The position numbers and the translations under genes are program-made. From an uncultured Ruminococcus sp. (lineage in GTDB: Bacteria; Bacillota; Clostridia; Oscillospirales; Ruminococcaceae), in the NCBI GenBank assembly GCA_902788785.1, contig CADALT010000005.1:1-64000 (forward strand): DNA of 64,000 nt, in the 5' to 3' direction. Below are positions 17,062 through 52,761 of this stretch, piece after piece. Every line of letters begins with the position of its first letter. Within the stretch, counting starts at the first letter, position 1. The notes beneath the pieces are model-generated. The model was given only the letters and a program-made list of their open reading frames with translations, had not been told where the DNA came from and did not search any database.

Positions 17062-17070
17062 CGTATTACC

Positions 17071-26021: not shown

Positions 26022-26246
26022 TCACAGAGAGTTTAGCTTTTTCTGAAGCTCTATCATATGATTTCTGCAAGCTGTGATCTCGCCCGTGTACTTGTTGAAC
26101 CACTCAACGTCGTTCTCATCAGGCTCTTCCTGCAAAAGCACCGCCTGCACCAGCGCCGACTGCGATCTTGAACGCTTGCGCTCGATCTCCTCGATGGTCT
26201 GCCTGCATATCTTGATCTCTCTTTTGAGCTTACGCTTTTCGTTCAT
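26022..26246 (-). CDS. Small coiled-coil protein, 74 residues
   Basis: The protein is almost entirely heptad-like and highly charged (MNEKRKLKREIKICRQTIEEI), with a second helix near the end (NHMIELQKKLNSL). It has no membrane span. It is the last gene of the fibre-assembly operon, 18 bp behind the small membrane protein, and could bind the coiled-coil parts of that protein or of the 989-residue fusion. No family recognised. Confidence 0.65.
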   Translation of the reverse strand: MNEKRKLKREIKICRQTIEEIERKRSRSQSALVQAVLLQEEPDENDVEWFNKYTGEITACRNHMIELQKKLNSL

Positions 26247-26264
26247 AAAGCTTACCTCCCTCGC

Positions 26265-26717
26265 TTATCTTCCCTTTTTGTCCACCGACTCCACTATCGA
26301 ATCGGTCTCCTCATATCCCTTATCCAGATCGGCAATGATGTCGTCCAGAGCCTTTTTAAGCTCCTCCATCTTAGTGCTCATCTGTTCGGGATATTTTATC
26401 AGACAGGTGTTGATCTCGTTTATGGTCTTCTGTTCCTTTTCAAAATCATCTATTAGGAACGCATAGGAATTTGCACAGCTGACATATGTGTATATACGCT
26501 TGTACCTCAGCTCCAGATCGCCCTTGTTTTTGATGTAGGAGTCTATCTCCTTGCTTGCATGGGTAAGTTCTATGCGGAACTGCGCTCTGTACTGCCGCTG
26601 TACGCTGTTCTTGGCATCAATATAAAGACCTATGAATACAAGCAGTGCGATAAGTGTCAAGCCCCAGAGGACGAAGGCACTAATCATCCTTCGTTTCATT
26701 ATCTTGTCTTGATTCAT
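26265..26717 (-). CDS. Membrane-anchored coiled-coil protein, about 150 residues
   Basis: The ATG at 26717 has GAGGTG seven bases upstream; a GTG two codons earlier is too close. One membrane span (about 12-32, ISAFVLWGLTLIALLVFIGLY) is followed by about 115 extracytoplasmic or cytoplasmic residues with helical, coiled-coil character (MEELKKALDDIIADLDKGYEE). It overlaps the end of the DUF2357-peptidase fusion gene by 38 bp, so the two proteins are translated together. No family recognised. Confidence 0.75.
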   Translation of the reverse strand: MNQDKIMKRRMISAFVLWGLTLIALLVFIGLYIDAKNSVQRQYRAQFRIELTHASKEIDSYIKNKGDLELRYKRIYTYVSCANSYAFLIDDFEKEQKTINEINTCLIKYPEQMSTKMEELKKALDDIIADLDKGYEETDSIVESVDKKGR

Positions 26718-29649
26718 CCGCACTCACCTCTGTTTCTGCCTGATAATTTTCCTCCGCCAGCCTTTGCTTTTCTTTTTCGATGGCTTCACGGATGAGTTTT
26801 TGGCGCAGTTCTTCGTAGTCGTTCTCGTTCTTTTTAAGTTCGATACCGATCTTAGCCAGCGTCCTGAGTTCGTACACCGATACAGCGCCGATGGGTATTA
26901 TCACGAATATCATCAGCAGTTTCCTTGCATCTGCAAAGGTGCTCACCCAGATGAAGAACCTTGCTTTTCCGATATATTTGCCCACCACCTGATCGGGTCG
27001 TACCGTTATGCTGTCTTCCACAGGATTTGCGTCGCCCTTTGTGACGAAGGTGCCGTCATCATTGACTTTTACTATCCTGTGGGTGACCAGCATACCGTAG
27101 ATGTCGCTTTGTTCGGAATAGAACGAGATCACGTCACCGTCAGCAAGGGTCGAAGTATCGGTCTTTTCCACAAGTATATGGTCGCCCGTATGTATCGAGG
27201 GTTCCATGCTGCCCGTTACCACACGCAGCACGCTCTTACCGAATACGGATACTGCCTTGTTCCTTGCGGCGCTTATCATCACATAAGCTGTGAAGACTGC
27301 CAGCACCAGTATAAGTATGGTGACTATGATGCTTGCTATCCTGCCTGCACCGCTGTCCGACTTGATCTTGTCGGGGTCTTCGCCGTTCTCGATACGTCTT
27401 AGCAGTTCTCTTTCCTGCTCGTCCTGCTTATACTTGCGCTCTTCTTCTATCGAACGCCTTATCTCGGTGTACCTTCTGCTGATCTTTTGCGCAGGAGTTA
27501 CATGGTACTCTCTGTACAGGCGCTTCATCTCGTTGTCGATAGCCAGCTGTTCCTCGGGTGTTCTCTTGGGCGGAACAAATGTAGGCTTCGGCTTGTTCTT
27601 CATCTGCTGACGTCTGCGCTTCTTGAACTTATAGTCATCTATCGAACGCAGGAAACGGTATTTGAAAGTACGTGCATACTTCCTGTAGTAAGCTTCCATA
27701 GCGTCTCGCTTCTGACGTTCTTCCGCTTTGAGCCGCCTGCGCTCTTCAAGCTCGGCACGCTTTGCCTTGAATGCGGGGTTATCCGTATCCTCGGGGATAA
27801 TGCCGAATACCATAGCCAGTATATAGCGTATGAGTCTTGGTATTGCGTAGATGGGGTTATGTGAGTATTCTCTGTAGATGACCCAAAACGGCTTGCTCTC
27901 GAAATACTTGCGCTCGGCTTTGAGCCTTTGTGCTCGTTCAGCGTCACGCCGCTCTTTCTCCTGCTTTTGCTGTTCCACTTTGAGCCTTGCCGCAACAGCT
28001 CTGGGGTCCTCGAACACTTCCTGTTCTTCCTCGGCGTTTTCTTCCATGGAAGCCTTTACCTGTTCGATCTCCTCTTCTGTTACTTCCTCGTAAGCCTTCT
28101 TTTCCAGCTCTTCGTCGGACTCTTCCTTCTTCAGCTTCTCGCTGTCGATGCCCTCTGCCTCGCCCAGTTCGGCACGCATCTTGTTCTCGTTCTGTGCAAC
28201 ACGCTCACGCTCGGCAGCTATGCGCTCTTCTTCCTCTCGGCGGAGCCGCTCTTCTTCCTCACGCTTACGCATTTCTTCAAGTCTTGCAAGGCGCTCCTGC
28301 TCCTGACGCTCTCTTTCACGCTCTTCCTCTTCCTGCTCACGCCGCTTCTGTTCGAGCATTTCCTGTAGTCTGCGTTCTTCCTCCTCTTTCTGGAGGCGTA
28401 TGCGTTCGAGCTCGGCTTGTCTTGCTTCCTCGATCCTGCGCTGTTCTTCGAGCCTGCGTTCTTCCTCGATCCTGACCTGTTCGGCTTTGAGTCTCTCGGC
28501 TTCACGCTTGGCGATAAAGGCTTTCTCGATCTCGATGACATTGTTGACCTCATCGAACACCAGCCTTATATCCGCAGGCAGGCTCTTTTTCAGTTTGAAT
28601 TCGCCGTCGCCTGCCACATAGCCCGGCACAGCTTCGGCTATAACGCTGTAGTCGCCCGAGAGTTCCTCGCTGAAATGTTTGAGAAATCTCGGTGTCAGCT
28701 TTTTCTGCTTTTTGGTCTTGAGCTCCTCCATGTTCTCGCTGTTCTGCCCTGTGTAGGAACGGAAAAGCAGGAGGTTCAGCACAACTATCTTATAGAAATC
28801 CTCGATGTAGTCCTGCTCGGGCTTCACCGCAGAGTTCTCCACGTTTATCTCGTAGCCCACCTTGTCGTAGCTCTCGATATACTGCCAAAGTGCAAGGCAC
28901 GCCTTGAGCTCAACATTCTTCATGATGGCGTTCGTCCTCATGATGGGCGGTCTGACATAGGTATTGCCCAGCGCCGTGCAAAGCTCCGAGCCCTTATAGC
29001 CTTCGATGGCTTTTTTCAGCTTCTCCACCCTCTGCCATACGGTGAAGCCGCTTTTATCGTACGAGTCAAGGCTCGATGTAGATTCGAGCTTGACCTCTAT
29101 CTTCATCTTGCCGCCTGCGCCGTCATCAAGGAAGGTATCGTATCCCAGCGAGAAAACTTCCTCGTCCCTTGCTACCTGCGCCAGCTTCTCATACCTTGTG
29201 TTTATGAATATATAGAGTCTGTCCACCAGGGTGTTGATGAACTTGTTCTCATAGGTCATAAGGCTTTCTTCCTTATGAACATTGAGGATCTTTGACGGAG
29301 TTATCTTGCCCGACTTTTTGTCGATGCTCTGTATAAGGTCGGTATGCTGAGCCAGGTGCTTGACCGACTCAACGGTTATCTTCCTTGACAGGGCGATGGG
29401 TACGACCTCTTCAACGTCCTCGATGGTCCTGCTAGGGCTTCTGAGCACGTTATCCAGATGTACCAGACCGTTCTCGATAGCCTCTACCCATGTGACATCT
29501 ATCGCCTTCGCCATAAGTTTGCGGTTCATGGCGAACGTATTTTTACTTGAATGGAGCAGGTTATCCAGCGAACCGAAAAGCTCGTCATCGTCCATCAGAC
29601 CTGCTGACTCCTTAAAATCCTCATACCATTTGCCGTACAAGCTACTCAA
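26680..29649 (-). CDS. Fusion of a DUF2357/McrC-like domain, coiled coil and SipW-type signal peptidase
   Basis: The 989-residue protein starts at a TTG with AGGTGAT upstream. About 1-370 resembles DUF2357, the family that accompanies McrB-type ATPases (ILNVHKEESLMTYENKFINTLVDRLY). About 380-600 is a long run rich in Glu, Arg and Gln that should form a coiled coil. A hydrophobic patch follows (YAIPRLIRYILAMVFGIIP), then a basic region, a membrane span near 800, and a signal peptidase I domain with the Ser in TGSMEPSIHTGD and a His in VTHRIVKV. The His instead of Lys marks the SipW/endoplasmic-reticulum type. A last membrane span and a charged tail follow. I see no clear PD-(D/E)xK nuclease site. 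This combination is new to me. The adjacent McrB-like ATPase is the likely partner. Confidence 0.85.
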   Translation of the reverse strand: MSSLYGKWYEDFKESAGLMDDDELFGSLDNLLHSSKNTFAMNRKLMAKAIDVTWVEAIENGLVHLDNVLRSPSRTIEDVEEVVPIALSRKITVESVKHLAQHTDLIQSIDKKSGKITPSKILNVHKEESLMTYENKFINTLVDRLYIFINTRYEKLAQVARDEEVFSLGYDTFLDDGAGGKMKIEVKLESTSSLDSYDKSGFTVWQRVEKLKKAIEGYKGSELCTALGNTYVRPPIMRTNAIMKNVELKACLALWQYIESYDKVGYEINVENSAVKPEQDYIEDFYKIVVLNLLLFRSYTGQNSENMEELKTKKQKKLTPRFLKHFSEELSGDYSVIAEAVPGYVAGDGEFKLKKSLPADIRLVFDEVNNVIEIEKAFIAKREAERLKAEQVRIEEERRLEEQRRIEEARQAELERIRLQKEEEERRLQEMLEQKRREQEEEERERERQEQERLARLEEMRKREEEERLRREEEERIAAERERVAQNENKMRAELGEAEGIDSEKLKKEESDEELEKKAYEEVTEEEIEQVKASMEENAEEEQEVFEDPRAVAARLKVEQQKQEKERRDAERAQRLKAERKYFESKPFWVIYREYSHNPIYAIPRLIRYILAMVFGIIPEDTDNPAFKAKRAELEERRRLKAEERQKRDAMEAYYRKYARTFKYRFLRSIDDYKFKKRRRQQMKNKPKPTFVPPKRTPEEQLAIDNEMKRLYREYHVTPAQKISRRYTEIRRSIEEERKYKQDEQERELLRRIENGEDPDKIKSDSGAGRIASIIVTILILVLAVFTAYVMISAARNKAVSVFGKSVLRVVTGSMEPSIHTGDHILVEKTDTSTLADGDVISFYSEQSDIYGMLVTHRIVKVNDDGTFVTKGDANPVEDSITVRPDQVVGKYIGKARFFIWVSTFADARKLLMIFVIIPIGAVSVYELRTLAKIGIELKKNENDYEELRQKLIREAIEKEKQRLAEENYQAETEVSADESRQDNETKDD

Positions 29650-29684: not shown

Positions 29685-30461
29685 TTACTGTTTCTTACTA
29701 ACAAATGCGATCCACGCAGGAAGTGCCGCCATTGGGTTTTCCTTCGGGTCATTTATATTTTTAAGTTCCTGTTCGGTCTTAGTCTGCAATTCCTGATAAG
29801 TGTACCAGAACGACGCATCGACCGCAGGCAGCTCAGCCAGCTCTGTCACCATAAATCCTGCCCTGACCTGTGCATTCAGAAGATCCTGGATACGCCAGTG
29901 AAGATGGGGCAATACATCGTGATAGGATTTCACGATCTGCGGAGCTTTGTAGGCTTCACATGAAAAGGGACGAGTAAACGGGTGAATATCGTATTGGATG
30001 AGCATACCGCCTTTTTTCAGCACTCGTGCAAAATTGCGGTACATACTTTCAATATCGTTTATCCACGACAGTGTTCCGTTGGAGGTATAAACAAGGTCAT
30101 AGGTATCATCGCCGATATTTGAAAGCGTCATCGTATCATCGCAGACAAACCGTATATCAAGCCCTCGCTCTTTTGCGATCTTTTCTGCATTTTCAAGCTG
30201 TCTTTCGCTTATATCCGCAGATGTAACAACGGCTCCCATGAGGGCAAATGCGAAAACTGCATGATTATCTCCGCTCGATGGCAGCAGCACCCGCAAATCT
30301 TTCAGTACAGGTGTATGTGTGCGTATCTGCCTCATTACCTCGGGATGGAAAGCACGCTCCGGCTCTGCGAACAATGCGTCTATCTTTTCACTGCTCCTGA
30401 GCGAACGGTACCACTGTGAATCCGAAACGCCGTTCCAATGCTCTTTTATCTCATCGATCAT
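29685..30461 (-). CDS. SAM-dependent methyltransferase
   Basis: The 258-residue protein has a class I methyltransferase fold. Motif I is weak (LRVLLPSSGDNHAVFAFALMG), followed by VTSADISERQLENAEKIA, and the acidic loop YDLVYTSNGTLSWINDIESMYRNFARVLKKGG is typical of the Methyltransf_11 group. The target is unknown. It overlaps the DUF998-like gene by four bases (ATGA) and lies in the fibre-assembly operon, where it may be a passenger or may modify a component. Confidence 0.85.
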   Translation of the reverse strand: MIDEIKEHWNGVSDSQWYRSLRSSEKIDALFAEPERAFHPEVMRQIRTHTPVLKDLRVLLPSSGDNHAVFAFALMGAVVTSADISERQLENAEKIAKERGLDIRFVCDDTMTLSNIGDDTYDLVYTSNGTLSWINDIESMYRNFARVLKKGGMLIQYDIHPFTRPFSCEAYKAPQIVKSYHDVLPHLHWRIQDLLNAQVRAGFMVTELAELPAVDASFWYTYQELQTKTEQELKNINDPKENPMAALPAWIAFVSKKQ

Positions 30462-31063
30462 ATTTTCACCTTATCATTCCGTTCTGTCGCATCGGTGTAT
30501 CTTTCCATGATAAGCGCCAGAAGCAGCAGTATTATAAACATTATCTCGTATACGAAAAACGCCTTGAACAGCACTTTCGCTCCCGTAAAATACAGTGCGA
30601 CAAATATCAACGCATAGGCTATCGAGAACAGTGCCGTTACACGCTGTCTTTTGACCTTTGCTGTCACCGCCGTGATGATGAAGCCTATCAGCGTAAACAG
30701 CATCAGGGCTATGGCAAAGCCGTTATGCAGGTCGATGGTGATAGGTGTGGGTGCCTCGCTGAATGTATTGAAAGGGAAAAACGCCGTCCCGAAAATGCAC
30801 ATGAGCACCAGTGCATAAAACACCTTTTTCACCCTCGCCATTCGTATCTTCGCTGCATAATATCCCAGTGCGGGCACCATCAGCACAGCCGAGATAAAGT
30901 ACACCACAGATGTCCATCTGAAAAGTCCCACATACGATGAAAATGATATTGTCAGATCAAAGCGGTGTACGCCCTTTATCCAGGCGTAGCCCACAGCCGT
31001 TACTGCGTTTATCATAAAGAGCATACCTGCCATGAAAGGCAGTTTATTCTTGTGTTTTTTCAT
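30458..31063 (-). CDS. DUF998-like membrane protein
   Basis: The 201-residue protein has about six membrane spans. The pattern of a second span near FRWTSVVYFISAVLMVPALGYY and a fifth near LHNGFAIALMLFTLIGFII is like DUF998/Frag1-type proteins. The function is unknown. It is translationally coupled to the following methyltransferase and starts 13 bp after the stop of the McrB-like ATPase gene. Confidence 0.8.
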   Translation of the reverse strand: MKKHKNKLPFMAGMLFMINAVTAVGYAWIKGVHRFDLTISFSSYVGLFRWTSVVYFISAVLMVPALGYYAAKIRMARVKKVFYALVLMCIFGTAFFPFNTFSEAPTPITIDLHNGFAIALMLFTLIGFIITAVTAKVKRQRVTALFSIAYALIFVALYFTGAKVLFKAFFVYEIMFIILLLLALIMERYTDATERNDKVKI

Positions 31064-31076: not shown

Positions 31077-32657
31077 TCAGTACAGTTTCTGCAATCTTTC
31101 CAGATAAGCTATGGACTCGCCCATCTTGTTCTTGCCGAAGGATTTGTTCATGTAGACCACCAGCTCACGCAGTTCGTCACGGAGCATTGCAAGGTTCAGC
31201 GACTCGAACTTACGGAATATCTTGGTAGCCAGCACGTAGTCGATGCCGTCCAGCTCATCGCCGCCGCAAGCCACATATACGGGCACGAACAGACCCATCT
31301 GCTTCAGGATACGGTTACCGAAAGCCACACGCAGTTTCTCGATGACCCACAAGTCAAGCTGCTGTATCTTCTTCAAATTCTCTGCCGAGATGGGGTACTT
31401 GTCGAAAGCTTCCTTGAAAAGCTGATCCAGGTGGTCGAAGCCCAGGTTCATGGGCGGAGTATCGGGTGCATCGAATGCGATACCCTTTGCGTCTAGGTTG
31501 ATAGGCTGGGCACGGTCGTAGACCTTATCGGATATAGCGTATGTGGAGTCATCGTTATTCGCTGTACCGATGTACCATACGTTCTGAGGAATGACCAGCT
31601 TGCCACGGTCGAGCTTTTCGGGGTCGGTGCTCCATACATTGGGCACCAGGTCAAGCTCCCACTCATCGGCATTTGGCATTTCAAGTATGGAGAGCATCTC
31701 GGCGAAGTAATACTCGACTCTCGCAATGTTCATCTCGTCCAGCAGTATCAGGTTGATATCGTTGTTATAGCTGGATGAGTATATCCTCTTCAAGACCTCT
31801 GTCTCGTTGAAGTTCTTGGTAAATTCATTGAAGTAGCCGAAAAGCTCGGTACGGTCACGCCACGAAGGCTGTACCGAAGCGATGGTGGTATCCACCTGCA
31901 AAAACTTACCGAATGAGTACGGCAGCGAGGTCTTACCTGTACCGGAGATACCCTGTAAGATAATGAGCTTTGTGGAAGCCATGCCTGCCATAAACAGCCA
32001 TATGGTCTTGGGCTCATAATACAGGTGCATTCTCGAGCAAGCAAAGTTCCTGTACGCATCGCATATGCCTGCCAGAGTTATCTCGTTATCGTACTGAGGC
32101 GGTTCATAGGTCTTATAGAAGTTATCAACTTCCATAAGTCTTGAAAATCTGTGGTCGGTGGTATGGATAACGCCGTCGGTATCCAGCTCGCCTGCCGCAG
32201 CGCCCTCACCCTCAGCACCCTCTGCGCCAAATGCCGCCATACTTCCGTCTGCCAGTGAGAGTGCCGTGCCTGTGGGAAGTCCCATCTGTGCGACCTTCAT
32301 CGCCATGATCTCGTCTTTTTCCTTGGTCATTTTAAGTACCTGACGCTGCAGATCTGCTATTTCTTCCAGCAGGTCCTCATTGCTGACGATGGAGTGCCTG
32401 AAGCGGATATATTTACGCACAGCAAGCACGATCATCAGACCGATCAGGAAAAATACCGCTGCGACCAGTATTATCGCCAGTACAGACAGTATCCAGCCCA
32501 GTGCGCCGAAATCTTTTGAATAGGTCTTGAAGATCTCTATGTAATTTTTAATGTTGAATATCTGCTTTATCCCGTTCCAAAGTCCCGTAAATATCATTGC
32601 GAAGCCTTTGAGCATTTCCGAGATAAAGACAAAGAACCATTTCAAAAATGTATTCAT
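31077..32657 (-). CDS. Membrane-anchored McrB-like AAA+ ATPase
   Basis: The 526-residue protein has N-terminal amphipathic and membrane segments (a clear span at about 55-80), a coiled-coil linker (about 92-122), a Gly/Ala-rich low-complexity stretch (about 138-160), then an AAA+ module: Walker A GISGTGKT (236-243), Walker B INLILLDEMN (301-310), a sensor-1 Asn in GTANND and an Arg in YDRAQP. The NLILLDEMN block is McrB-like (as in the GTP-using restriction subunit), but McrB itself is soluble. The partner is probably the DUF2357-peptidase fusion. It may drive assembly or extraction of membrane-tethered subunits. Confidence 0.85.
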   Translation of the reverse strand: MNTFLKWFFVFISEMLKGFAMIFTGLWNGIKQIFNIKNYIEIFKTYSKDFGALGWILSVLAIILVAAVFFLIGLMIVLAVRKYIRFRHSIVSNEDLLEEIADLQRQVLKMTKEKDEIMAMKVAQMGLPTGTALSLADGSMAAFGAEGAEGEGAAAGELDTDGVIHTTDHRFSRLMEVDNFYKTYEPPQYDNEITLAGICDAYRNFACSRMHLYYEPKTIWLFMAGMASTKLIILQGISGTGKTSLPYSFGKFLQVDTTIASVQPSWRDRTELFGYFNEFTKNFNETEVLKRIYSSSYNNDINLILLDEMNIARVEYYFAEMLSILEMPNADEWELDLVPNVWSTDPEKLDRGKLVIPQNVWYIGTANNDDSTYAISDKVYDRAQPINLDAKGIAFDAPDTPPMNLGFDHLDQLFKEAFDKYPISAENLKKIQQLDLWVIEKLRVAFGNRILKQMGLFVPVYVACGGDELDGIDYVLATKIFRKFESLNLAMLRDELRELVVYMNKSFGKNKMGESIAYLERLQKLY

Positions 32658-32680: not shown

Positions 32681-33331
32681 TCATCCCTCGGCACCGCCGT
32701 CACCGCTGCTGTCCTTTTTCTGGCTTGCGAGGTATTCTTCTATTGCACGCTTCTTGATCTCTTCCTCGTCATCAGCGGTAAGCTGGGGCTTTTTGAGCTC
32801 TACCAGTGTCACGATGAACTTATAAAGTTCAACAAGGAAGAATATTGCCATGGGGATAACTATGCAGATGAAGAAGCCTGTCTTTGTTCTGAGGAAGTTC
32901 ATGACCTTGCCAAAACCGTTAAGCTTCACGTCTGTCCACTTGCCTATGATATCCCCTGCGTATGCAGGAAGTGTGTCGTCCTGATTATTGTTATCGCCTC
33001 GTGTAACGAAGCTTCTTGTGCCTTCAAACTCGTTTACTGTCACTATTCTATGGGTGTTCTTGACTTTCTTGCCGTCGATTATCGTCCAGAATGTTATTAC
33101 ATCGCCCTCTTTAAGATCGTAGATGTCGTCCACCTCTTTACAGATGATAAGGTCATCTTTCGAGAACGTGGGCTTCATGGAGTCCGACTCGACCGTCATG
33201 GGGATATAGCCCAGCAGATTTGCCACACCGTTGTTTCTGCCTGACGAGAATACCATTATTGTTATAAGCAGTGCTAAAATAAGAACTATCCAGACAATAA
33301 CGTTCAAAACAACTTTCAATACTTTTTTCAT
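32681..33331 (-). CDS. sipW: SipW-type signal peptidase I
   Basis: The 216-residue protein has an N-terminal membrane span (about 7-28), the catalytic Ser51 in SDSMKPTF, and His94 in NTHRIV where bacterial type I peptidases carry Lys. A second span lies at about 150-175 and the C-terminal tail is acidic. The Ser-His pair is characteristic of Bacillus SipW, which processes the matrix proteins TasA and TapA. Several neighbouring proteins carry SipW-type signal segments. AGGAGAAAG precedes the ATG. Confidence 0.9.
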   Translation of the reverse strand: MKKVLKVVLNVIVWIVLILALLITIMVFSSGRNNGVANLLGYIPMTVESDSMKPTFSKDDLIICKEVDDIYDLKEGDVITFWTIIDGKKVKNTHRIVTVNEFEGTRSFVTRGDNNNQDDTLPAYAGDIIGKWTDVKLNGFGKVMNFLRTKTGFFICIVIPMAIFFLVELYKFIVTLVELKKPQLTADDEEEIKKRAIEEYLASQKKDSSGDGGAEG

Positions 33332-34933: not shown

Positions 34934-34971
34934 CAGCAGCACCTCCTTGACCATACTATTTCCTCTATTTT

Positions 34972-36275: not shown

Positions 36276-36382
36276 ACTCATTTTCCTTTCATAAATTATT
36301 TCGGCTTACCACGTTGCCGATGGGGTCGTTAAACTTCCACGAAACATCTAAAAACTTGCCAAATGTTTCTTAACTTGTATAC

Positions 36383-45800: not shown

Positions 45801-47236
45801 GCAGGATCAACAATACCTATTGCTCCGCCAAAAGCACTGTAGGTCGCATTTGCGGTTGCTGTCAGTGTCAATCCATCAAATACCAGACTGTTCGAAAGGG
45901 CATTTGTTGTATACTTACCAGCGATACCGCCGAAATAGCCATCTGTATTGCCAGTTGTTCCCGAATTGACGGTAAGAGTTCCTGCACCGGTGTTCTTGAC
46001 AGTAAGCGCTGTACTGTTTTCAAGCACACCGAAAACACCGCCGCAGAACTGACCATCTACGGTAGCTGTATTATTATAATCTATCAGATCAAATTCGGTC
46101 TCAGAGTTGGTATAGTGACCGAACAGACCGCCTGCACCTGCATCACTTGTAATGCTTCCGCTTACAGGAATAGCAGAACCGGTCTGATTGGTGATCGTTG
46201 CCTGTGAGGTCAGCTCACCGACAAGACCGCCTGCATAAGCAGATGTTGACTCGGCACTTAGTGATACCGACGGCATAGTTTTGACAGTCAGACTTGCATT
46301 GTCGATCATAGTGCCTACAAGACCGCCCGCATTGCCGCCTGATGAAGTGATACTGTGAGCGCTTGTGGCAGAATAAGTCAGTTCAATGGACGAGCCGTCC
46401 TTCATCGTTCCGCAGATCTCGCCAACAGAGGAAACAGAAGCTAAATTAGCTGATGATTCGTTGGTGTAATCAAGCTTTACCGAAGCTCCGCTTTCGATCT
46501 CGCCTATAACGCCTGAATATGAGTTACTGCTTGCCGAAGACAATGTAACTTTCCAATCTGCCGTTCCGCCATTATGTACCACCTGATCTGCGAGCAGCGG
46601 CAAAGATTCCCCATCAGGCACATCTGATAATCTGACGAGAATAAGCTCTATTTGCTGATTAGTCGCATCACTCTGCAATTGGACTGAATCCGTAACAGCA
46701 CCAAAGAACGCCCTGTGTGCCTTAATAGTAAATGATTCATTGCCGCTAAATTTAACTGTACCGTCAAACGGAATTGATGGGGTACCAAGTCCCTCATAGG
46801 TATTTGGTATAGTTCCACGAACACCTGATTCATCGTTTGTAAGAGAGAGATCAAGTTCATCATTCTTATGCCTGTCTGCAAATCCATCGTTATATTTATA
46901 ATGCCAGCAATAATCAAGAAACCAGGTAATGTTAGGGAATGTGATAGAATAATTATTTGTATCCGAATTATAACTGACATAAGCATTATCATTTTCAAAT
47001 TCCGAAGATTGTTTTGTCACTGTATACGGCTCAGCATCCAGCTTGAGAGCATTTACCTGTGTCAGTTCGTCCGTTGTTACTTCATCGACTGCATCGACTG
47101 CCTTTGCATTCAGTGAGACCAAAGGCAATACTCTATCAGATAAACCTCCCAGCGGAACTGCATTAGCCATAATAGCAAAAGCAGTAGTGAAGCTTATGAT
47201 CCTCTGCTTTGCTTTTTTATTGAAAGATAATTTCAT
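36845..47236 (-). CDS. Giant secreted protein with GLUG-like repeats (3463 residues)
   Basis: A signal peptide (MKLSFNKKAKQRIISFTTAFAI...) ends near LNAKA. From about residue 250 to about 2500 at least 20 short motifs of the form GG-hydrophobic-hydrophobic-G occur (AGGLVGTM, GGLFGHYT, GGVFGVLE, GGFIGYC, GGIIGGI), each set in 40-100 residues of Asn-, Thr- and Ser-rich strands. This GLUG-like pattern points to a long right-handed beta-helix, as in adhesins. The last 800 residues are different, with beta-sandwich character. No LPxTG motif, dockerin or terminal membrane span is seen, so attachment must be through other proteins. The three small membrane proteins upstream in the same unit are the obvious candidates. 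Confidence 0.9.
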   Translation of the reverse strand: MKLSFNKKAKQRIISFTTAFAIMANAVPLGGLSDRVLPLVSLNAKAVDAVDEVTTDELTQVNALKLDAEPYTVTKQSSEFENDNAYVSYNSDTNNYSITFPNITWFLDYCWHYKYNDGFADRHKNDELDLSLTNDESGVRGTIPNTYEGLGTPSIPFDGTVKFSGNESFTIKAHRAFFGAVTDSVQLQSDATNQQIELILVRLSDVPDGESLPLLADQVVHNGGTADWKVTLSSASSNSYSGVIGEIESGASVKLDYTNESSANLASVSSVGEICGTMKDGSSIELTYSATSAHSITSSGGNAGGLVGTMIDNASLTVKTMPSVSLSAESTSAYAGGLVGELTSQATITNQTGSAIPVSGSITSDAGAGGLFGHYTNSETEFDLIDYNNTATVDGQFCGGVFGVLENSTALTVKNTGAGTLTVNSGTTGNTDGYFGGIAGKYTTNALSNSLVFDGLTLTATANATYSAFGGAIGIVDPAAYVQTTGTMSVTASGTTKANYFGGLVGATSADRGVFVDLENFTLNTGSENFKGGGVVGLFNNGVLRLSGTTTMTNAKPASATNCGQLVGDNNNVLTYAASGWTFNRSNGAMTDDLGTWGEVVRVAESDIVTVDSTAHTVTLKAAETSMGSAADFAKTALNIQLNQGGDYDCLKFTSGNNTRSYLLGTGLSLSADISLAGTGITGFMRDGGAVNSIDSFTGTFDGNGHTITLAIGEKYGNGVNASTNSEGVGQIYRHQHNGLFAVLAGTVEDLTIAGTINVSNCVDGMNIGGIASRNNGDITLTNVIAKETVNYNESAKVSVSDEGKNIGGYIGFVGTKGTITINGVSSIGATFNLKGSHESWNVYGGAIGKITAGEFTVKIGTKGDNANKLTNSLTTDISDITNVGANSDSGGLIGYITNAGSYAKRQVNINNLEISNCTIGNAASTNGGGFLGYAWLNTTTNVNGVTVTNGTINNTANNKTAGNVGVMLYSSTGKMKVDSLSINGLTMSAGGTTSLGMIVNKAYSLNDKNEVTGALYLDVLNAGYSLNGTTAPEQATGIFDEIAAYSAPNVINGGAGVISINMNESRDTNNANFKTTGTYQNKMSVSDDLKANSNARYYYNVDKMSSSDAGQNLVLWSLSKYAHSDINGEFVHTETHDFGTTLNTTLSGNADLEGLSFYPINANSYNISGLNLTMDYSGVYDAESKFGTYNPNDSYVRDPGVENQHYLMHSGLFTNLSNANTITISGTNTFKGNFLELSNASVSGVLVSKTSNGSIISSSDSKLVLDELVAKTTQNRDYSDGYLLVNNITRINSVDSKDDIKIYLEGISTKNYESDTIVAKSLLGAASGANLNIEFSKIKLDSRTNALSDSTANTALNKAYGTTRSIFSTSTLLASIKTDDKAQLKYYYSENEDWGSDGTDGERWVTYGKEVKDSKEYQKLEQKYDGSSYYTHPVNWHSNSAYDFGTGFLPYVAEPFTASQANSIYYRELKVNVTADGLTEGCGTYNDPYVINDGKQLTAVARFISTGSTDELSKITLPKAKDNFDNIAENASGSRWCTDKEGTGYHADFAPNSGKTAYENGSISWEIKNVQYYLANAYYKIDGDIKLSGDISTGFVGLGGLEANLAFRGVIVGEKNSDGSPKYTITNNSSNPFIKVSNGCVVKDIIIEVGADISLDQGTNGYNNAYFGYASQCKYYGGIIGEIMGGDNIIDNSYVKFASDKKVTLTGTNGSGTIVPVGGYVGVVVFGGLIFKNMDALKTTVSKTRLNVIYMGKTENLADNDKPEDWAAIYVNPIVGRVINGYAVNETGGNALDADGKKVQQFSVTEDGKYHDEGRTARSAATIQHTLKNGTKHYSIADINKNETNKLDVSAVPASASSDGTINIPNSQAFFILSLITQSCAGTAQGASGDYANSLSYGTNKINNVDTVYGMSRNADYTNVGSATDNTDSDFVLASNDTTANSATPYIIDRYCTNHNARCVTSTLGYYDIYLTGKATYSVDSYTYQLPDSFRGIGSVGNYDCESTLLNNKFSMKVDVFNGNNCMIDEDIYLNKFKSDNYFDVMHKGTNQEVKSNTGTYSTNTNTDNHGIGLFDSIISKDATNTISNFVLTGSVNTEMYSNTYKDSGQEEVFTASGAKASWLSVSGVVGWSRGAADNDASHQQGISFNKITLDNLSLCGDNFVGGLLAYSGMRSKTKKITITECSANNISVKMSSAYYGDTDAKKTRNAMGCFVGKVHEGAAIVYGTSQKENNSDITKFSTVKIKSYGFGVSTGDYRVASGGLVGYAGNGCQAYDMKICSYDSAVTIGLNSGTSFVGGIVGAMQPSTDGDTDCLAVFKNCTIENINIAGQCAGGLYGGKWEYKNYNPYKIEIINCSLIGNNTVNNTITAKTYAGGFIAWAFVQTRNGDDYNIRIVDSKVSNYTISSAKDGYSGGFIGYCRANNNSITCYIHDSSVENCIIGQSGSVDYAGGIIGGIKKHDENKILGYNIKLYNVTSPSSNRKGAWIGNVASDDNNTSIQFSGMTVYGGNFTQNVGNRTNFSNASFVFADYTGKCNGTQTTDSETGVSSTEYPTDISGFSNYSTSTHVEMPKYPYVNINPQSDIGANEIISGDGAALYGSSVTGFSGKTADKTMAAKIYADLSDRTNTRRYTTFDKNAVLYDGKKIEDYLNVLPGTDGDKISTYRTEKGELPSSNVKDFAVVVIANQTEDETTALINSYIQLVTNTATDYTTTSIYYSIDIKTCKFNGTDFVIDNTTNHGLTFSGGKFDLNGSYADSNNTTDTFTLVDVQFKDPFNTSKIAYHLYVPVYTIKQMEVDFYSAVKTGSGSVSYIEGTPSNEYSSLMDTTENQTHIDSLETWVTQYIRFTYNYGDLNALLQGGNLDWNHEKYVNFDTQQAGGNTEARLPDGTFMVLIDPNGNGDKEYYAHAEDFDTYNKSDGKACWKIDLNKFKDGADNFKVQDLKAVIARYINYSKNNDNTGLYKDVTELVEATPTTKYDVYRIDNSNKVHYYKYTPEGNGDSDLSINENVNEDYYISMYVPKEADYNNELYYYTIYSPTELTGRKTATVNCKNIYNVLVADLYTQNTINRMSVAPEDQQVNATNKKISVEASTSITINNVNARSHLVGKNLYHSFDLTLNRYTESGVYNDIIGLGDSDDTTRIKATYSIGSKADENSDPVLKKDLQTNYLNIETANIMSDLITASNNRQPLVVSSYIEMDFDENKLEAEFPEKSSENTIGVNVSATSNLAYDESRLAYTSMSVPFASDGHYYYRESVNAAKLDYTSVTEPDAFDKIGKVSKNQSRLGINGYSPDCYQNEYMPINTEAKYNVSAISETDLAKAKELKLTISLSKKTDKYEDDTVTGVEYAQISNLLNYLDNQVLITSGSKYGTGGNGETHKIDENSSSLVVKIPIEECENEDNIYSIGIGFKAKTGVNFHEYANYMVTLRTELVYTDDNNQEKVVENSSISDYVIYTNAKIFPTLID

Positions 47237-47293: not shown

Positions 47294-48391
47294 TTAATTT
47301 GATTGGTTAAAGTAACAGGCGATATAATTTGTCGCTGCATTGTCTCCTGTATAGGAAACTCCGTTCAGAGAATTTGTTGCTGTCTTATACAGCTGAAGTT
47401 CATACCTGTTTTTACTATTATTGCCGGAACCGACGCTAAGCGTGATCTTATTCCAGCCAACATATTTCCCATCATACTTTCCGCTGCCATACTGTGTATC
47501 AGAATTATCAATTTTTGTTGGCTCATTATTATTGTCAACAAATGTGTTATTTGAAAGCTCTGTATCAAAGAAAAATTCATTTATCCTAAATTTTTGCGGA
47601 TCCCATAAAATATCAACAGTTCCTGCACCACTGCCTGTGATAACATAATTATAGAAGTCATAATCGACAGTAGCACAGTTTTCCTCTATAATCTTTCCTG
47701 TCCATGTAGCTGTATCTGTTACAGCTGCAGCACCATACAATCTTGTCTCGATAAGACTTAAATTGCTTGGCGCTGAAGGCTCTGCCCAGACATGGACATA
47801 AATATCTGTGTTTGCAGCATTGATCGAGGTCGGATCGATCTCTACCTTATACTTGTCAACAGACGAATGCTGAGCTGCGAGGGAATCGGCTGCGAGCATT
47901 ACAGAAAAGCCGTTGCCAACAGTAAATTTATTCTCTGGTGCTGTAACCGTTCCGGTTGCATCGTCTTCGGTCTTGTATATGGAGTATTTTGTTGCTTTAT
48001 TTAAATAATCTGTATATTTCGCACTTGACTGATCAAGAGTATTAAGGTATGTTACCAGCTTTGTATAATTATCTCCCTGCTTGATCTGAAGCTCGGCGTG
48101 AAGTGTATAGCTGATAGTTGAAGGATTATATATCGTCGGCTTATCCTGATCGAAGTTACATACTGTTACGCTGTATTCGGCAGAAGAAAGCCGCCTGCTC
48201 GAAATATCGGGACGCATACAGTTTGATGAGAACATCTCAACAGGTGCAGCCTGCGTTGAAACAACACGTTTTACCGAGGAAACCTCTGTATATACCGCAT
48301 AGGTCACATAAATACCGCCTGACATAAGCAAAATGGCGATCAGCCATACTCTCGTCCAATGCTTTCTTAACGTTTTCAGTATTTTATTCAT
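47294..48391 (-). CDS. Membrane-anchored surface protein with SipW-like signal segment
   Basis: I start at ATG 48391, six bases behind GAGGTG. The 365-residue product has a basic N terminus, a span (VWLIAILLMSGGIYVTYAVY) and an outer domain of about 330 residues rich in strands, with three cysteines (NCMRP, TVCNFD, ENCATVD). The segment YVTYAVYTEVSS resembles, but is not identical to, the AWF signal ends of its neighbours. It lies 58 bp upstream of the giant gene in the same unit and may be a minor pilin-like subunit or anchor. No exact family is recognised. Confidence 0.75.
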   Translation of the reverse strand: MNKILKTLRKHWTRVWLIAILLMSGGIYVTYAVYTEVSSVKRVVSTQAAPVEMFSSNCMRPDISSRRLSSAEYSVTVCNFDQDKPTIYNPSTISYTLHAELQIKQGDNYTKLVTYLNTLDQSSAKYTDYLNKATKYSIYKTEDDATGTVTAPENKFTVGNGFSVMLAADSLAAQHSSVDKYKVEIDPTSINAANTDIYVHVWAEPSAPSNLSLIETRLYGAAAVTDTATWTGKIIEENCATVDYDFYNYVITGSGAGTVDILWDPQKFRINEFFFDTELSNNTFVDNNNEPTKIDNSDTQYGSGKYDGKYVGWNKITLSVGSGNNSKNRYELQLYKTATNSLNGVSYTGDNAATNYIACYFNQSN

Positions 48392-48410
48392 GACCTTCAC
48401 CTCGTTTTCA

Positions 48411-49199
48411 TCAGCTTACGCCTCGGCTTGCTGTAATATATATCATATCTGTTTCTTTATTATTCTCCGCTTTATTCCATTTTGTAAAATTGGGTGCAGC
48501 GGCTTCGCTGTCCCATTTTATTTCCAGAATAAAATAATCATATGTGTCCTCGCCCTTATCAGACGGAGTGATCGTTTCAGATTTGAGATATTTGGGAACA
48601 GCATATATTTCCGCATCATCATCATTAGCATAAGTTTTATTATAGAAGCCATCGTTTTTCTTAGCGATCTCTCTGCCATAATAAGTTTCATTAGCAGAAT
48701 CTGCATTCAGTGGGATTAAACTAACCGCATCACCTTTCTGATAGTAAAATGTTGTTCCGTCTGTTGTAGGATCATTTGGATCTTTATAGATCGGCTTATA
48801 GGGAACGGTATTCTCTCCGGACGAATCAACTTCCTCTGCATGATATATCGAATACTTGAATGGAATATTAGTTGTATGTGCGAGCTGTAAAACATATGGT
48901 ATTTTATAATTTCCTGCACTGACACTAAAGACACGATATTCGATCTTTCCATTCTTATCCATATCTTCAATGTTGATATCACTTAGTTCAAAATTGATTA
49001 TAGAATGATAGTGTCCTGCTCTGATATCAAGGTTTTCGGGCTCTTTTACCTTTGTCATGGTTTCCATTTTATTAACACTCGAAAACCATGCATAAACAGG
49101 CATTCCCACCATAAGCGCCAACGTGAACAGTGATGCAAGTATAAACTCTACCTTTTGAACATTATTCAGTTTATTGAATCTTTGAAGGATCTTTTTCAC
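48411..49199 (-). CDS. Surface protein with AWF signal segment, 262 residues
   Basis: A GTG at 49199 lies six bases after GGGGAGTG and is the best start; another GTG three codons earlier overlaps that site. A basic N terminus (VKKILQRFNKLNN) and a hydrophobic stretch end in MPVYAWFSSVNKMETM, matching SipW-type signals. The remaining 220 residues are strand-rich with many Tyr, Asp and Asn. It is translationally coupled to the upstream 356-residue protein. Probably a fibre or adaptor subunit. Confidence 0.75.
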   Translation of the reverse strand: MKKILQRFNKLNNVQKVEFILASLFTLALMVGMPVYAWFSSVNKMETMTKVKEPENLDIRAGHYHSIINFELSDINIEDMDKNGKIEYRVFSVSAGNYKIPYVLQLAHTTNIPFKYSIYHAEEVDSSGENTVPYKPIYKDPNDPTTDGTTFYYQKGDAVSLIPLNADSANETYYGREIAKKNDGFYNKTYANDDDAEIYAVPKYLKSETITPSDKGEDTYDYFILEIKWDSEAAAPNFTKWNKAENNKETDMIYITASRGVS

Positions 49200-49204
49200 C
49201 TGTA

Positions 49205-50275
49205 TCACTCCCCGGATGACGATACTTCTGACACAGACATTTTCAGCAGAATGAAGTCTACCCCCATTCCTATCTCATTATCTGCCTGATCGTAGTAATC
49301 GCCGTATTTATCGTAATCAGTCACTATTGCCGTCTCGGCAAGCCTGTCATTTACATTAGCCGGACGGGTCACGCCTTTAAAATAATAGTCCGGATATGTT
49401 GTAATGTTTTCAACTACTTCATGGTAAGCATTTGTACTTGTAAACGGTGATTCAGAAACTGTGACCTTTTGACACGTTCTTGCATCTATCAATTTGCTGA
49501 GGGTCATGGGCCATACCCAATATATATCGACCCGTGTCGGTTCGTCATTTGCATTTTTTGTATATTTATTGCTGCTTATGACCCGCTGCATATCAGCATT
49601 TGAAAGAATAGGCTTGCTGTAAACGTAATCATCTTTTGTAGTACCTGTTCTTTCTTCAAAAAGAAGAATATGTCCGTTCAGAAAACGGGCAGGAGACTCT
49701 TTTTCATCGAGCAGTTCCATATTATCTGCATTGTTTGCAGCATTTTCGTCATAGCTATATCCTAATATTTCAAAATCATAACTAAGATATATATTATCAA
49801 CATACGGCTTGACATTAAAAGAGATTTTCCCACAAGAACCGGGTTTTATCCCTCCATTCTGCTCCTCCGTATTATCAGAATTATCAGAATTGTAGTTTCC
49901 AAAGTTTGATTCATCAGTCATCAGCCATACGATAGCATCTGATCCTGTTTCTTCACGAACATTCTTATGATACGGATCATACCATAAACCTTTAAAACCG
50001 TTTTCATCAATGGAAGATAGCTCAAAGTTCATCCCCTGAGCTTTCATACCTATCTCCTCTGTATCCACTTCCCTGTTCATAGTAAACCACGCAATAGTTG
50101 AAAACGCAATGAGGACAGCGAGCAGGATCAGCATACTTGTGAGCTTTATCAGACTTTTTTTCTGTTTGCGCTTATTCTCGGCGTTTTCTTTTTTCATCTC
50201 GGAAAGTATGAGCTCCGCCTGTTCTTCAGCCAGTTTCATCATCTGTTCTGACGGCTTATTTTCGCTGTAATTCAT
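49205..50275 (-). CDS. Surface protein with long cytoplasmic tail and AWF signal segment
   Basis: ATG 50275 follows GAGGTG by six bases. The product of 356 residues has a charged N-terminal region of about 45 residues (LAEEQAELILSEMKKENAENK), a hydrophobic span (LIKLTSMLILLAVLIAFS) and the segment STIAWFTMNREVDTEEIGM, nearly the same as STYAWFTMSREVEVQNIQM of the main subunit at 35145. The outer domain of about 290 residues is strand-rich. The long tail is unusual for a cleaved signal. It is the first gene after the operon promoter at 50347-50375. Confidence 0.8.
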   Translation of the reverse strand: MNYSENKPSEQMMKLAEEQAELILSEMKKENAENKRKQKKSLIKLTSMLILLAVLIAFSTIAWFTMNREVDTEEIGMKAQGMNFELSSIDENGFKGLWYDPYHKNVREETGSDAIVWLMTDESNFGNYNSDNSDNTEEQNGGIKPGSCGKISFNVKPYVDNIYLSYDFEILGYSYDENAANNADNMELLDEKESPARFLNGHILLFEERTGTTKDDYVYSKPILSNADMQRVISSNKYTKNANDEPTRVDIYWVWPMTLSKLIDARTCQKVTVSESPFTSTNAYHEVVENITTYPDYYFKGVTRPANVNDRLAETAIVTDYDKYGDYYDQADNEIGMGVDFILLKMSVSEVSSSGE

Positions 50276-50346
50276 GGTTTTCACCTCACTTGCGAAGTTT
50301 CATATGTTCGGGACGAAGTTTTCCCCGCCCCATATTACTCTTCTAT

Positions 50347-50456: not shown

Positions 50457-50755
50457 TTAGCCCGCATTGTTACAAAGATATTACCGTAAAGCTCTCCGTG
50501 ATATTAAGGCAGTTTTTACTTATATAACGTGTTTAAAATCCTGATTTTACGAGGTTTTATGCATCATATGACATTCAGGCTCTCCTATGTCGGGCACAAC
50601 TTTTGGGAAGATAGGCAAAACCAAATCGGACACAATACACAAAAAGTTCAATTATTTTTCATTGTTATCAAGATTGCACAAAGATGAGGTTTCATAGCAG
50701 CGGCAAAATCGAATCCCAAACACCCATCACTCGCCGAAATAAGAGGGAGAGAAAC

Positions 50756-50787
50756 AAAAAAGAGGGCAGTTTATTCAACTGTCCTCT
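50756..50787 (-). terminator. Terminator of the LytR-CpsA-Psr gene
   Basis: On the minus strand AGAGGACAGTT pairs with AACTGCCCTCT (one G-U pair) and is followed by TTTTTTG. Confidence 0.8.
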
Positions 50788-50805
50788 CTGAGTTATCATA
50801 TTATT

Positions 50806-52761
50806 TTACCACCAGTAATTAGGCGGTTCGATGCCGTTTTTCTCGTAGAAAGTACCGTCAGCCAACTCGCTCTCATACTGTTGGGCTGCCTCTTCGGAAG
50901 TCTTGCAGTCGCCGTAGATAACGTAGTTCATGATAGCCGTGTTCGCCTGGAAATCCATGGGTCCCAGCGACAGGCAGCTCTGGCTGAAAATGATCGCATC
51001 GGTATAATAGCCGTCAGCAGGGATCCTGAGCTGCTGGATGGAATAATCCATATAATCGAAAGCGTTCAGCAGCAGGTCAGCGACCTCGTCGTCCTCGATA
51101 TCGGTCTCGACCTCGGGCAACACCTTGTTCATAAGGGCATCAAGCTGCACAAGACTGAGCTTTTTCGCCTTCTTGACGATCTCCTGGATAACTTCTCGCT
51201 GGCGCATCGTTCTGCCGTAGTCATCACCGCAGCCGTAACGTATTCTCGCATAAGCAAGCGACTGGTTGCCGTTGAGGTGCATTTTTATGACCTCTTCATC
51301 GGGCGAACCATACTCTACCCACTCATTTTCCTGATTGTACTGTGAGACGTCCACCAGATCCTGATCCCAATCATTGCCGAGGTAATAGTTCTGCTCTCCC
51401 AGAGGGTCTTCTATCGCCTTGGCTTCGTTATATGAGACTTCAAGATCAAGTCCGCCCACGGCTTCAACTATGTCGATAAACTGCAGGAAATTGACCTTAA
51501 CGGTCCTGTCGATCTTGATGTTGAAGTAGTCCTGGATAACTTCCGAAAGATAATCCGCACCACCGTACCAGTAAGCGTGGTTGAGCTTATCATTAACATC
51601 GAATTTATTCATATATACCCAGGTATCACGCATCAGCGAAGTGAGAGTGATCGTCCTGTTCTTGCGGTTTATGGAGATGAGCATCATGACATCGGTCATA
51701 CCACGGTCCTCATTGGCTGTATCACGAATATCCTCACCAATCAGCAGCACGTTCATGACATCGCCGCTGGAGATCATCTTGGAATGCTGCTGTAATTTTT
51801 CACGGAGTTCCTTCTCCTTTTCAGCCTCATCCATAGTGTCCTCGCCGTCAACGATATCTCGGCTGTCAACAGGCGGTTTTTCGGTATTTATCGAAGTATC
51901 CGTGGGCTTGAGAAGACCGAAATAATGATAGAAGATAAATATCACCGCAGCCATCGCCAGAACAAGCACCAGGAAGATTATGCCCAGAGCGATGCCCGTC
52001 TTCTGACCGCCGCTGCGCTTATATTTTTTCTTCTTTTTATTCGACTTTTTCTTGCTGCCCGAGCTTGTTTCGGAAGAAATTTTTTTCTTGCTCTTTTTCT
52101 TTTCAGATGAAGCTTTATCGGACTTTTTAGGTTCATCATAAAGCTTTTTGCCCGAGTCTTTCCATTCATCCTTATCAAAAGCAGTTTCAGAAAGATGTTT
52201 TTCTGCTATCACAGGTGATGCATGGGAAGTTTTATTCGGCGCAGCATTGTTCTTTGCCGCCGCTATCCTGTCTGTCAATCCATCAGGCTTGACATCTTTC
52301 GGTTTGAAAGAAATGTCGGGAACGCTGTCAAGTTCTTTACTTTTCTGCATTGCAAGAGATATCCTGCCTGTCAAGCCATCGGGCTTTTCAGTGATCACAT
52401 CAGCACTATCCTCACCATGTTCCCTGCTGTTTATGACAGCCTTGGTTATCCTGTCCGTAAGTCCCTCAGGCTTATCCTTGGGCGTATCAGCAGCTCCATC
52501 AAGATTTTTGCAGTTGATAGCCTGTGAGATACTTTCGGACAATCCCGTGGGACTGTCCAGCGGAGATACATCTTCATCCTCGTTTGCATCACCCGCATCA
52601 GCAGAACTGCTCCTGCTGCGCTCCATAGCCTGTGTTATCCGCTCCGTCAGACCCTCAAGCCTGTCCAGAGCACCGACAGATCCCTCAGCGCCTGCCTCCG
52701 CAGTACCATCTACATTATTAAGTTCCTCGGAAGCATCGGTATGATCTGTATTATTACTCAT
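50806..52761 (-). CDS. LytR-CpsA-Psr family protein with cytoplasmic repeats
   Basis: The 651-residue protein has an unusual N-terminal cytoplasmic part of about 250 residues. It contains five copies of a motif like EGLTDRITKAV, at about 35, 75, 102, 130 and 160, then a Lys/Ser-rich stretch. One membrane span (about 258-282) precedes an LCP domain: VMNVLLIGEDIRD, TSLMRDTWVYMN, DKLNHAYWYGG and LAYARIRYGCGDDYGRTMRQ. LCP enzymes attach glycopolymers from lipid carriers to peptidoglycan. It has its own promoter and terminator just upstream of the surface-protein operon. It may anchor the locus products or a glycan to the wall. Confidence 0.92.
   Translation of the reverse strand: MSNNTDHTDASEELNNVDGTAEAGAEGSVGALDRLEGLTERITQAMERSRSSSADAGDANEDEDVSPLDSPTGLSESISQAINCKNLDGAADTPKDKPEGLTDRITKAVINSREHGEDSADVITEKPDGLTGRISLAMQKSKELDSVPDISFKPKDVKPDGLTDRIAAAKNNAAPNKTSHASPVIAEKHLSETAFDKDEWKDSGKKLYDEPKKSDKASSEKKKSKKKISSETSSGSKKKSNKKKKKYKRSGGQKTGIALGIIFLVLVLAMAAVIFIFYHYFGLLKPTDTSINTEKPPVDSRDIVDGEDTMDEAEKEKELREKLQQHSKMISSGDVMNVLLIGEDIRDTANEDRGMTDVMMLISINRKNRTITLTSLMRDTWVYMNKFDVNDKLNHAYWYGGADYLSEVIQDYFNIKIDRTVKVNFLQFIDIVEAVGGLDLEVSYNEAKAIEDPLGEQNYYLGNDWDQDLVDVSQYNQENEWVEYGSPDEEVIKMHLNGNQSLAYARIRYGCGDDYGRTMRQREVIQEIVKKAKKLSLVQLDALMNKVLPEVETDIEDDEVADLLLNAFDYMDYSIQQLRIPADGYYTDAIIFSQSCLSLGPMDFQANTAIMNYVIYGDCKTSEEAAQQYESELADGTFYEKNGIEPPNYWW

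Follow-up and report, generated by a model that had tools for sequence, protein, structure and literature searches.

The DUF2357 domain of McrC engages the rings of McrB and stimulates them, and the main text of the study by Bell et al. (2024, eLife) that describes this also names, without details, systems called CoCoPALM in which an McrB of the NxD class is combined with a signal peptidase (PMC11090510). Other work concerns surface fibres that depend on SipW-type signal peptidases: according to the parts of the reports available, TasA fibres grow via donor-strand exchange (PMC9674648), and in Clostridium perfringens SipW is required for the secretion and the polymerisation of a surface fibre protein (PMC7395162). 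Here we describe a locus from a stretch of 64,000 nucleotides (hereafter the window: positions 1 to 64,000 of contig CADALT010000005.1 of an uncultured Ruminococcus sp., whose 2.9 Mb genome we label G000), which encodes a pair of McrB-type AAA+ and McrC-type DUF2357 proteins, as McrBC does, together with two SipW-type peptidases, a gene set that some Clostridia of gut and rumen have in common. Our results suggest that a defence machine of the McrBC type has been given a new task in the building or release of surface fibres, and on balance we consider it probable that the locus encodes a membrane machine for SipW-type fibres, controlled by cyclic di-GMP (c-di-GMP), and not a restriction system.

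The genes form a run of open reading frames (ORFs) on the minus strand, from 52761 to 26265, which starts with LCP, passes through AWF3, AWF2, Tas2, REP, AWF1, EAL, Tas1, SipW1 and AAA, continues with a membrane protein, a methyltransferase and FUS, and ends with sm152. Tas1, AWF1, sm152 and similar names were coined in this analysis, in which G and L numbers label genomes and loci. Every gene that an earlier sequence-only reading had placed on one strand was present between 26265 and 52761. The features are listed below, with residue numbers for transmembrane (TM) segments.

26265..26723, minus strand: sm152, small protein with a single N-terminal TM segment (13-31); closes the core
26680..29649, minus strand: FUS, DUF2357 (McrC N-terminal type), long charged region and membrane SipW2 peptidase domain
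31077..32657, minus strand: AAA, McrB-like ATPase/GTPase of the NxD class, predicted to be membrane-anchored
32681..33331, minus strand: SipW1, signal peptidase of the SipW/archaeal type, TIGR02228
33372..34154, minus strand: Tas1, membrane-anchored (TM 50-68); candidate fibre anchor
34178..34954, minus strand: degenerate EAL-domain protein (PF00563, 2.7e-28)
35145..36281, minus strand: AWF1, with YAWF at 38-41; candidate SipW substrate or fibre subunit
36845..47236, minus strand: REP, 3463 residues; recurring cargo
47294..48400, minus strand: Tas2, membrane-anchored cargo protein (TM 18-36)
48411..49208, minus strand: AWF2, with AWF segment; candidate SipW substrate
49205..50284, minus strand: AWF3, with AWF segment; candidate SipW substrate
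29685..31063, minus strand: methyltransferase and membrane protein between AAA and FUS; judged outside the system
50806..52761, minus strand: LCP gene; judged outside the system

Compared with these described systems, the module is a variant of CoCoPALM, a kind that in the main text of Bell et al. is named yet uncharacterised. The two have in common an McrB-type domain of the NxD class, a TM part joined to that domain (here residues 59-77), an association with a signal peptidase family and a suspected tie to the assembly of surface structures (PMC11090510). In CoCoPALM the part joined to the McrB-like domain is FtsB-like and combines TM segment and coiled coil, and the McrC homologue usually has a coiled coil of its own (PMC11090510). 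We followed these traits in what we call named loci, that is, the best 80 of at least 534 AAA relatives in named genomes (Ruminococcus albus, R. flavefaciens, Eubacterium ruminantium, E. uniforme, E. xylanophilum, Lachnospiraceae and other Clostridia), each count covering only loci with enough DNA within limits that we set. The motif GTANNDDST is identical in 80 of 80 AAA homologues, and AAA is adjoined by SipW1 in 72/72 loci, by DUF2357 in 70/70 and by SipW2 in 63/63 (60 by motif and three fused genes, those of L123, L137 and L141, by eye). In contrast, the text that names CoCoPALM mentions no substrates, for which the window system offers candidates, no Tas1 or AWF proteins, no second peptidase fused to the McrC partner and no link to c-di-GMP. 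The locus had been called probably undescribed, which holds for its details but not for the combination, named in 2024 (PMC11090510). In the open literature, taken by titles and starts of abstracts and leaving the supplements of Bell et al. aside, no description of the module was found except the two versions of that study.

The tapA-sipW-tasA genes of Bacillus subtilis share with the window a SipW-type peptidase and, partly by construction of the comparison, signal segments akin to those of AWF1-3, but no AAA+ or DUF2357 gene is mentioned in the available parts of the report (PMC9674648), and no similarity of the mature domains to AWF and Tas1 was found. The sipW-bsaABCRSD genes of C. perfringens likewise serve a clostridial SipW-dependent surface fibre; they differ through two-component control and a self-polymerising BsaA, and an AAA gene goes unmentioned in the accessible text (PMC7395162).

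Conservation of the core

The loci share a fixed core made of the degenerate EAL protein, Tas1, SipW1, AAA, the DUF2357 protein, SipW2 and sm152, around which the cargo varies. AAA is found in 24 other genomes of the window's genus, and in 16/16 loci fetched from them the order EAL-Tas1-SipW1-AAA-DUF2357 was kept, with sm152 next in 15; the sixteenth, L048, ends at a contig edge. The named set overlaps with this one in some genomes, so the two were counted apart. In it, Tas1 lies at most 2.5 kb upstream of AAA in 61/66 loci and the degenerate EAL gene at most 3.5 kb upstream in 57/62, the misses being L146, L147, L150, L151 and L154; in L146 and L150 both genes were found farther upstream, with cargo genes intervening. 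A homologue of sm152 follows downstream in 51/56 loci and is missing from the divergent L149, L150, L151, L153 and L154. The order SipW1-ATPase-DUF2357-SipW2, on whose persistence in related genomes the earlier proposal had been made to depend, was retained in every locus with enough DNA.

When the other window ORFs of at least 150 residues were compared with the 116 pieces of DNA that we fetched (tblastn, 1e-20), most had no match; seven had 1 to 5 matches and one GGDEF-EAL gene had 15. A chance neighbourhood was rejected, as the core order is kept while the surrounding genes mostly change. Two members of the run were rejected as parts of the system by the same search: neither the LCP gene nor the pair at 29685-31063 had a match, and the methyltransferase and membrane protein were for this reason probably inserted into a gene order that is otherwise constant. 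Both the 3463-residue protein and the LCP gene that had been assigned to the locus do exist, but the latter does not belong to the system. Farther off in the window, a Zot-like protein is encoded at 60292-61170 (PF05707, 5.7e-7), perhaps of phage or other mobile element origin.

Co-occurrence was examined in 100 relatives, the own genome included, 31 of which carry AAA (E<1e-80; in G033 and G046 the weaker matches fall on different McrB-like proteins), with thresholds chosen after the lists were seen. SipW1 (E<1e-25) was found in 31/31 genomes with AAA and in 1/69 without (G033), while at a cut-off of 1e-3 signal peptidases match in 60/100 relatives. The DUF2357 part was present in 30/31 and 0/69 (the miss is the fragmented G019, 76% complete). 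The N-terminal profile of AWF1 found AWF proteins in 30/31 module genomes (the miss, G025, is 80% complete) and in 6/69 others, namely G011, G033, G047, G055, G081 and G099; this profile (A4) favours module genomes, because it was built largely from module loci. Fisher tests were applied to these counts, in which genomes of the same genus are not independent; with one vote per genus, the figures are 6/6 versus 1/60 for SipW1 and 6/6 versus 0/60 for DUF2357. The co-occurrence of ATPase, SipW1, DUF2357 and AWF proteins across relatives, proposed earlier as a check, is thus observed.

The module is present in 25/29 genomes of the window's genus and, in the scan of named genomes, also in Ruminococcus albus and Ruminococcus flavefaciens. 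The nearest named relative of AAA is that of Ruminococcus albus 8, with 88% identity. The AAA proteins of ten loci of Lachnospiraceae and Eubacterium (L112, L114, L125, L127, L128, L130, L131, L133, L140 and L144) are 74-79% identical to the window's and those of five genomes from other families of its own order only 44-64%; transfer among rumen bacteria is possible on these identities.

The ATPase, its partner and the peptidases

AAA matches no Pfam family above its cut-off, and a profile of nine AAA sequences placed McrB entries first among PDB sequences (best 6hz4, 6.2e-6). The protein carries a Walker A motif (236-243), a Walker B motif (303-310) and GTANNDDST (364-372), and its strong TM segment lies ahead of the AAA domain, with a weak one at 8-26; a membrane-anchored McrB-like ATPase, as read from the sequence earlier, is well founded. 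The DUF2357 part of FUS corresponds to PF09823 at 4e-8, and the Pfam domain was found in 26/31 DUF2357 members. When the whole DUF2357 alignment was compared with the PDB, McrC was not among the matches, which were to charged helices of unrelated proteins. The system resembles McrBC in its AAA+ core and DUF2357 partner, but its AAA has a membrane segment and an NxD instead of an NxxD motif, and no nuclease family is detected in the partner: Pfam matches with E up to 0.001 included none in any of the 31 members, on which grounds ordinary McrBC restriction was rejected. A HEPN or other nuclease, expected of CoCoNuT systems next to an McrC without its own, was not found among 14 window genes scanned with Pfam.

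SipW1 scores above the cut-off of TIGR02228 (9.3e-27), the model for archaeal-type signal peptidases, and matches the Bacillus SipW model NF046067 at 7.3e-30, but its 103.9 bits fall short of the cut-off of 190. The peptidase end of FUS gave a similar picture (TIGR02228 4.9e-28, above cut-off; PF10502 2.4e-5; Bacillus SipW model 7.8e-26, below cut-off), so that a second SipW-type peptidase fused to a DUF2357-like domain is indeed encoded in the window. SipW1 has the motifs DSMKP (50-54) and THRI (93-96), and FUS has TYENKF (132-137), GSMEP (813-817) and THRI (856-859); we take SM[KE]P and THRI to be the carriers of the catalytic Ser and His. In the named loci SM.P is kept in 69/72 SipW1 and 57/60 SipW2, and [TS]HR[IVL] in 72/72 and 51/60, many of the exceptions to the strict motifs retaining the Ser or having HRI preceded by another letter. 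The fusion is not a general trait: DUF2357 and SipW2 form a single gene in 25/63 loci and two genes in 38/63, and a quick tree of the AAA proteins requires at least four switches between the two arrangements. Elsewhere in the genome (G000:C6:69174-70536), three adjoining matches to PF00717 (signal-peptidase/S24-like) were seen, one of them under the family cut-off.

Matches to AAA were sought across the phylum in 398 genomes and found in 56; the match was full-length in two (the own genome and G472) and lay mainly or partly within the AAA domain in the remaining 54. The closest relatives outside the module are PDC-M26A and other NxD McrB-like proteins, which differ in matching mainly the AAA domain; the 28 phylum-wide relatives given with their locus read GT[VI]NxD[ED] in 28/28, and 0/28 have SipW within about 1.5 kb on each side, a distance partly covering the gene itself. 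The letters NNDD would also fit NxxD, and it is because these relatives read GT[VI]NxD[ED] that we place AAA, by its sequence, in the NxD McrB branch laid out in the main text of Bell et al. (PMC11090510).

These relatives raise the alternative of a membrane-bound anti-phage system, in which the McrB/DUF2357 pair would sense infection and the peptidases and surface proteins would be effectors or mere neighbours. AAA matches the PADLOC candidate PDC-M26A at 1.7e-37, and 9 of the 28 NxD relatives, the nearest AAA outside the module, have a DUF2357 match directly downstream. However, the absence of nuclease families from the DUF2357 members, a presence in 25 of the 29 genus genomes that is closer to a standing trait than to a patchy island, the tie to AWF proteins and the riboswitches described below make a defence role improbable in our view.

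Surface proteins and c-di-GMP

Among the 109 window ORFs of at least 100 residues, a literal AWF after a hydrophobic stretch occurs in AWF1, AWF2 and AWF3 only, as many as the sequence-only reading had counted as a minimum. Under the looser rule [ATSG][WYF][FY] five further ORFs pass, Tas1 among them. A hand-made AWF rule retained 140 of 1901 ORFs, 76 of them with A[WY]F, a set that is illustrative only as it contains repeat copies of some genomes, some Tas1 proteins and chance matches. The AWF letters do not vary among 18 aligned N-termini; these had been picked for them and are 24-66% identical to the window's over 100 residues. The C-terminal parts of Tas1 and AWF1 match each other (hhalign probability 97.4 over 131 columns, disjoint sets) and have the motif WLEG.D.DC in common; an AWF3-AWF1 match of 100 was not used, since its sets share members and are not independent.

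Comparison with 15 PF12389 proteins (5/20 loci were dropped for want of an ORF passing the signal rule) gave AWF1-3 hhalign probabilities of 76-87 over 30-35 columns, within the signal segment only, a likeness that is partly built in because both sides were picked by the signal motif. Homology of the mature domains with TasA was sought with Pfam, PDB sequences and hhalign against these 15 proteins and was not found, and the description of one membrane protein as TasA-like is not borne out.

As for the cargo, REP matches 12 ORFs of more than 900 residues in the fetched loci (phmmer) and no Pfam family at E 1. Four other giants were scanned: that of L049 has SpaA-like and other domains, that of L057 Listeria-Bacteroides repeats, and no domain was found in those of L055 and L056. 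With tblastn, Tas2 was found in 5 of the 116 pieces, AWF2 in 14 and AWF3 in 8.

The core EAL protein has lost the Glu of the EAL motif, the Asn and the Lys (residues whose roles we presume) in 58/58 sequences, in agreement with its earlier description as degenerate, whereas the larger EAL proteins of the same loci keep the three in 7/7. Outside the genus, c-di-GMP-I riboswitches were found at the cluster. They lie directly ahead of the degenerate EAL gene in L146, in L150 and, as a tandem pair, in L153. In L150 and L153 riboswitch, EAL, Tas1, AWF, SipW1, AAA, DUF2357, SipW2 and an EAL-domain gene all point in one direction. A riboswitch also precedes a SipW gene in L056, two were found in L055, the second ahead of an AWF gene, and more copies exist in L071 and L072. 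None was seen in L057 and L058, or in L145, L147, L148, L149, L151, L152 and L154, several of which are short or begin inside the cluster.

Counting was done in six genomes from outside the genus, all with AAA (G063, G079, G080, G088, G097 and G472). Of 18 c-di-GMP-I riboswitches found, nine are on the strand of AAA and no more than 18 kb upstream of it, where 0.08 would be expected (4/6 in G063, 3/3 in G079, 1/3 in G088, 1/4 in G472); the totals may be low, first-look candidates having been scored only partly in four genomes, and tandem copies are not independent. Within the genus, with 59 candidates scored per genome, riboswitches were found in 8/29 genomes, either on a different contig from AAA or, in G022, at a distance of roughly 1 Mb.

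Outside the genus, GGDEF-EAL genes often stand at the other end of the core. All six divergent named loci with DNA beyond SipW2 (L146, L149, L150, L151, L153 and L154) have there an EAL-domain gene of 746-787 residues, which Pfam identifies as GGDEF-EAL in 4/4 tested (L146, L149, L150 and L154). L056 has such a gene after SipW2 as well; L055, L057 and L058 showed no recognisable one. In the window, adjoining GGDEF and GGDEF-EAL genes lie at 15652-19089, on the strand of the core and some 7-11 kb downstream of it, and the GGDEF-EAL gene is the one matched in 15 of the 116 pieces; these neighbours were not counted as evidence.

Proposed mechanism and its alternatives

The membrane segments suggest a topology with AAA and DUF2357 inside and the peptidase domain outside. 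In the machine that we propose, AAA+ would form a ring beneath the membrane, the DUF2357 domain would engage it as McrC engages McrB, and the DUF2357-SipW2 protein would transmit the action of nucleoside triphosphate hydrolysis to the outer face. There, AWF precursors would be cut by SipW1, SipW2 or both, and the cleaved units would be added to, or released from, a fibre rooted in Tas1. Where a riboswitch is present c-di-GMP would set the timing of fibre production, and the degenerate EAL protein might serve as a c-di-GMP reporter or as a contact of the ring. Given donor-strand exchange in TasA and self-polymerisation in BsaA, as reported in the available parts of PMC9674648 and PMC7395162, a motor would serve timing, extraction or release, with no chemical need for it.

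That a membrane ATPase pair works on a surface polymer, as the sequence-only reading had it, is the best explanation, and it is strengthened by the c-di-GMP riboswitches found at the cluster in relatives; the assembly or release of fibres by the ATPase, its motor role and the polymerisation are what we infer from these genes.

Several results weigh against this explanation. The NxD relatives of AAA include a candidate defence family, PDC-M26A. No c-di-GMP-I riboswitch was found in the window at the gathering score, nor in 33000-53500 at E up to 1; none was found in eleven loci of the genus (L039, L043, L050, L052, L075, L077, L079, L093, L097, L110 and L120) or in the Eubacterium loci L131 and L140, and among the six genomes counted, G097 has 0/2 near AAA and the divergent G080 none at all. 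A classical coiled coil was not confirmed by a heptad test: the signal behind the TM segment of AAA is weak (233 of 2000 shuffles as good), and residues 386-545 of FUS, 62% charged with 2 Pro/Gly, gave none (830 of 2000). PF12389 (TasA/CalY) has no Pfam match in the AWF and Tas1 proteins or in the own genome, and the comparison of Tas1 with the PF12389 proteins is unconvincing (hhalign probability 36). BsaA polymerises when produced in Escherichia coli (PMC7395162), and the parts of the reports available mention no motor for TasA or BsaA fibres (PMC9674648, PMC7395162). Finally, G033 has SipW and AWF genes, no DUF2357 match and a distant McrB-like protein on another contig; the module is thus not always needed.

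Some of these points speak for the strongest rival, a quality control in which the AAA+ pair would act on AWF precursors that are stuck or have escaped cleavage, and on remnants of signal segments, by extracting them or assisting in their degradation, SipW2 being a second clipping enzyme and the fibre assembling by itself. The unfolding of membrane proteins is a frequent task of AAA+ proteins, G033 carries SipW and AWF genes in the absence of the module, and TasA assembles by donor-strand exchange with no motor named in the available text (PMC9674648). We consider this rival rather unlikely, and no evidence separates it from a machine that builds or releases fibres. In G033 itself, a SipW and two AWF matches lie together at C51:2318-5650, perhaps a motor-less version and a natural control.

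Regulated proteolysis would use the same parts differently: DUF2357 movement driven by hydrolysis would switch SipW2, whose cut in Tas1 or in a surface protein would turn a signal on or off, and the degenerate EAL protein would report c-di-GMP. This fits the presence of two peptidases, of which one is often joined to the AAA partner in a single protein, and of a degenerate EAL protein accompanied by riboswitches, but a structural role better suits the multiple AWF proteins and the giant surface proteins found at many loci, and we regard signalling as very improbable.

For Ruminococcus albus and R. flavefaciens attachment to plant fibres matters. If the preferred explanation, a c-di-GMP-controlled machine for SipW-type fibres, is true, a restriction-type motor would have been turned into a machine that builds surfaces, and SipW-type fibres, for which the available parts of the reports name no motor (PMC9674648, PMC7395162), would have an energised version. 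We propose, more tentatively, a new class of pilus-like machine, in which an McrBC-type ring beneath the membrane, driven by nucleoside triphosphates, would work a signal peptidase from inside, cleavage and growth or release at the outer face being both powered and timed from the cytoplasm and controlled by c-di-GMP. CoCoPALM, hitherto little beyond a name in the main text that introduced it (PMC11090510), would gain defined components, putative substrates and, in c-di-GMP, a regulator.

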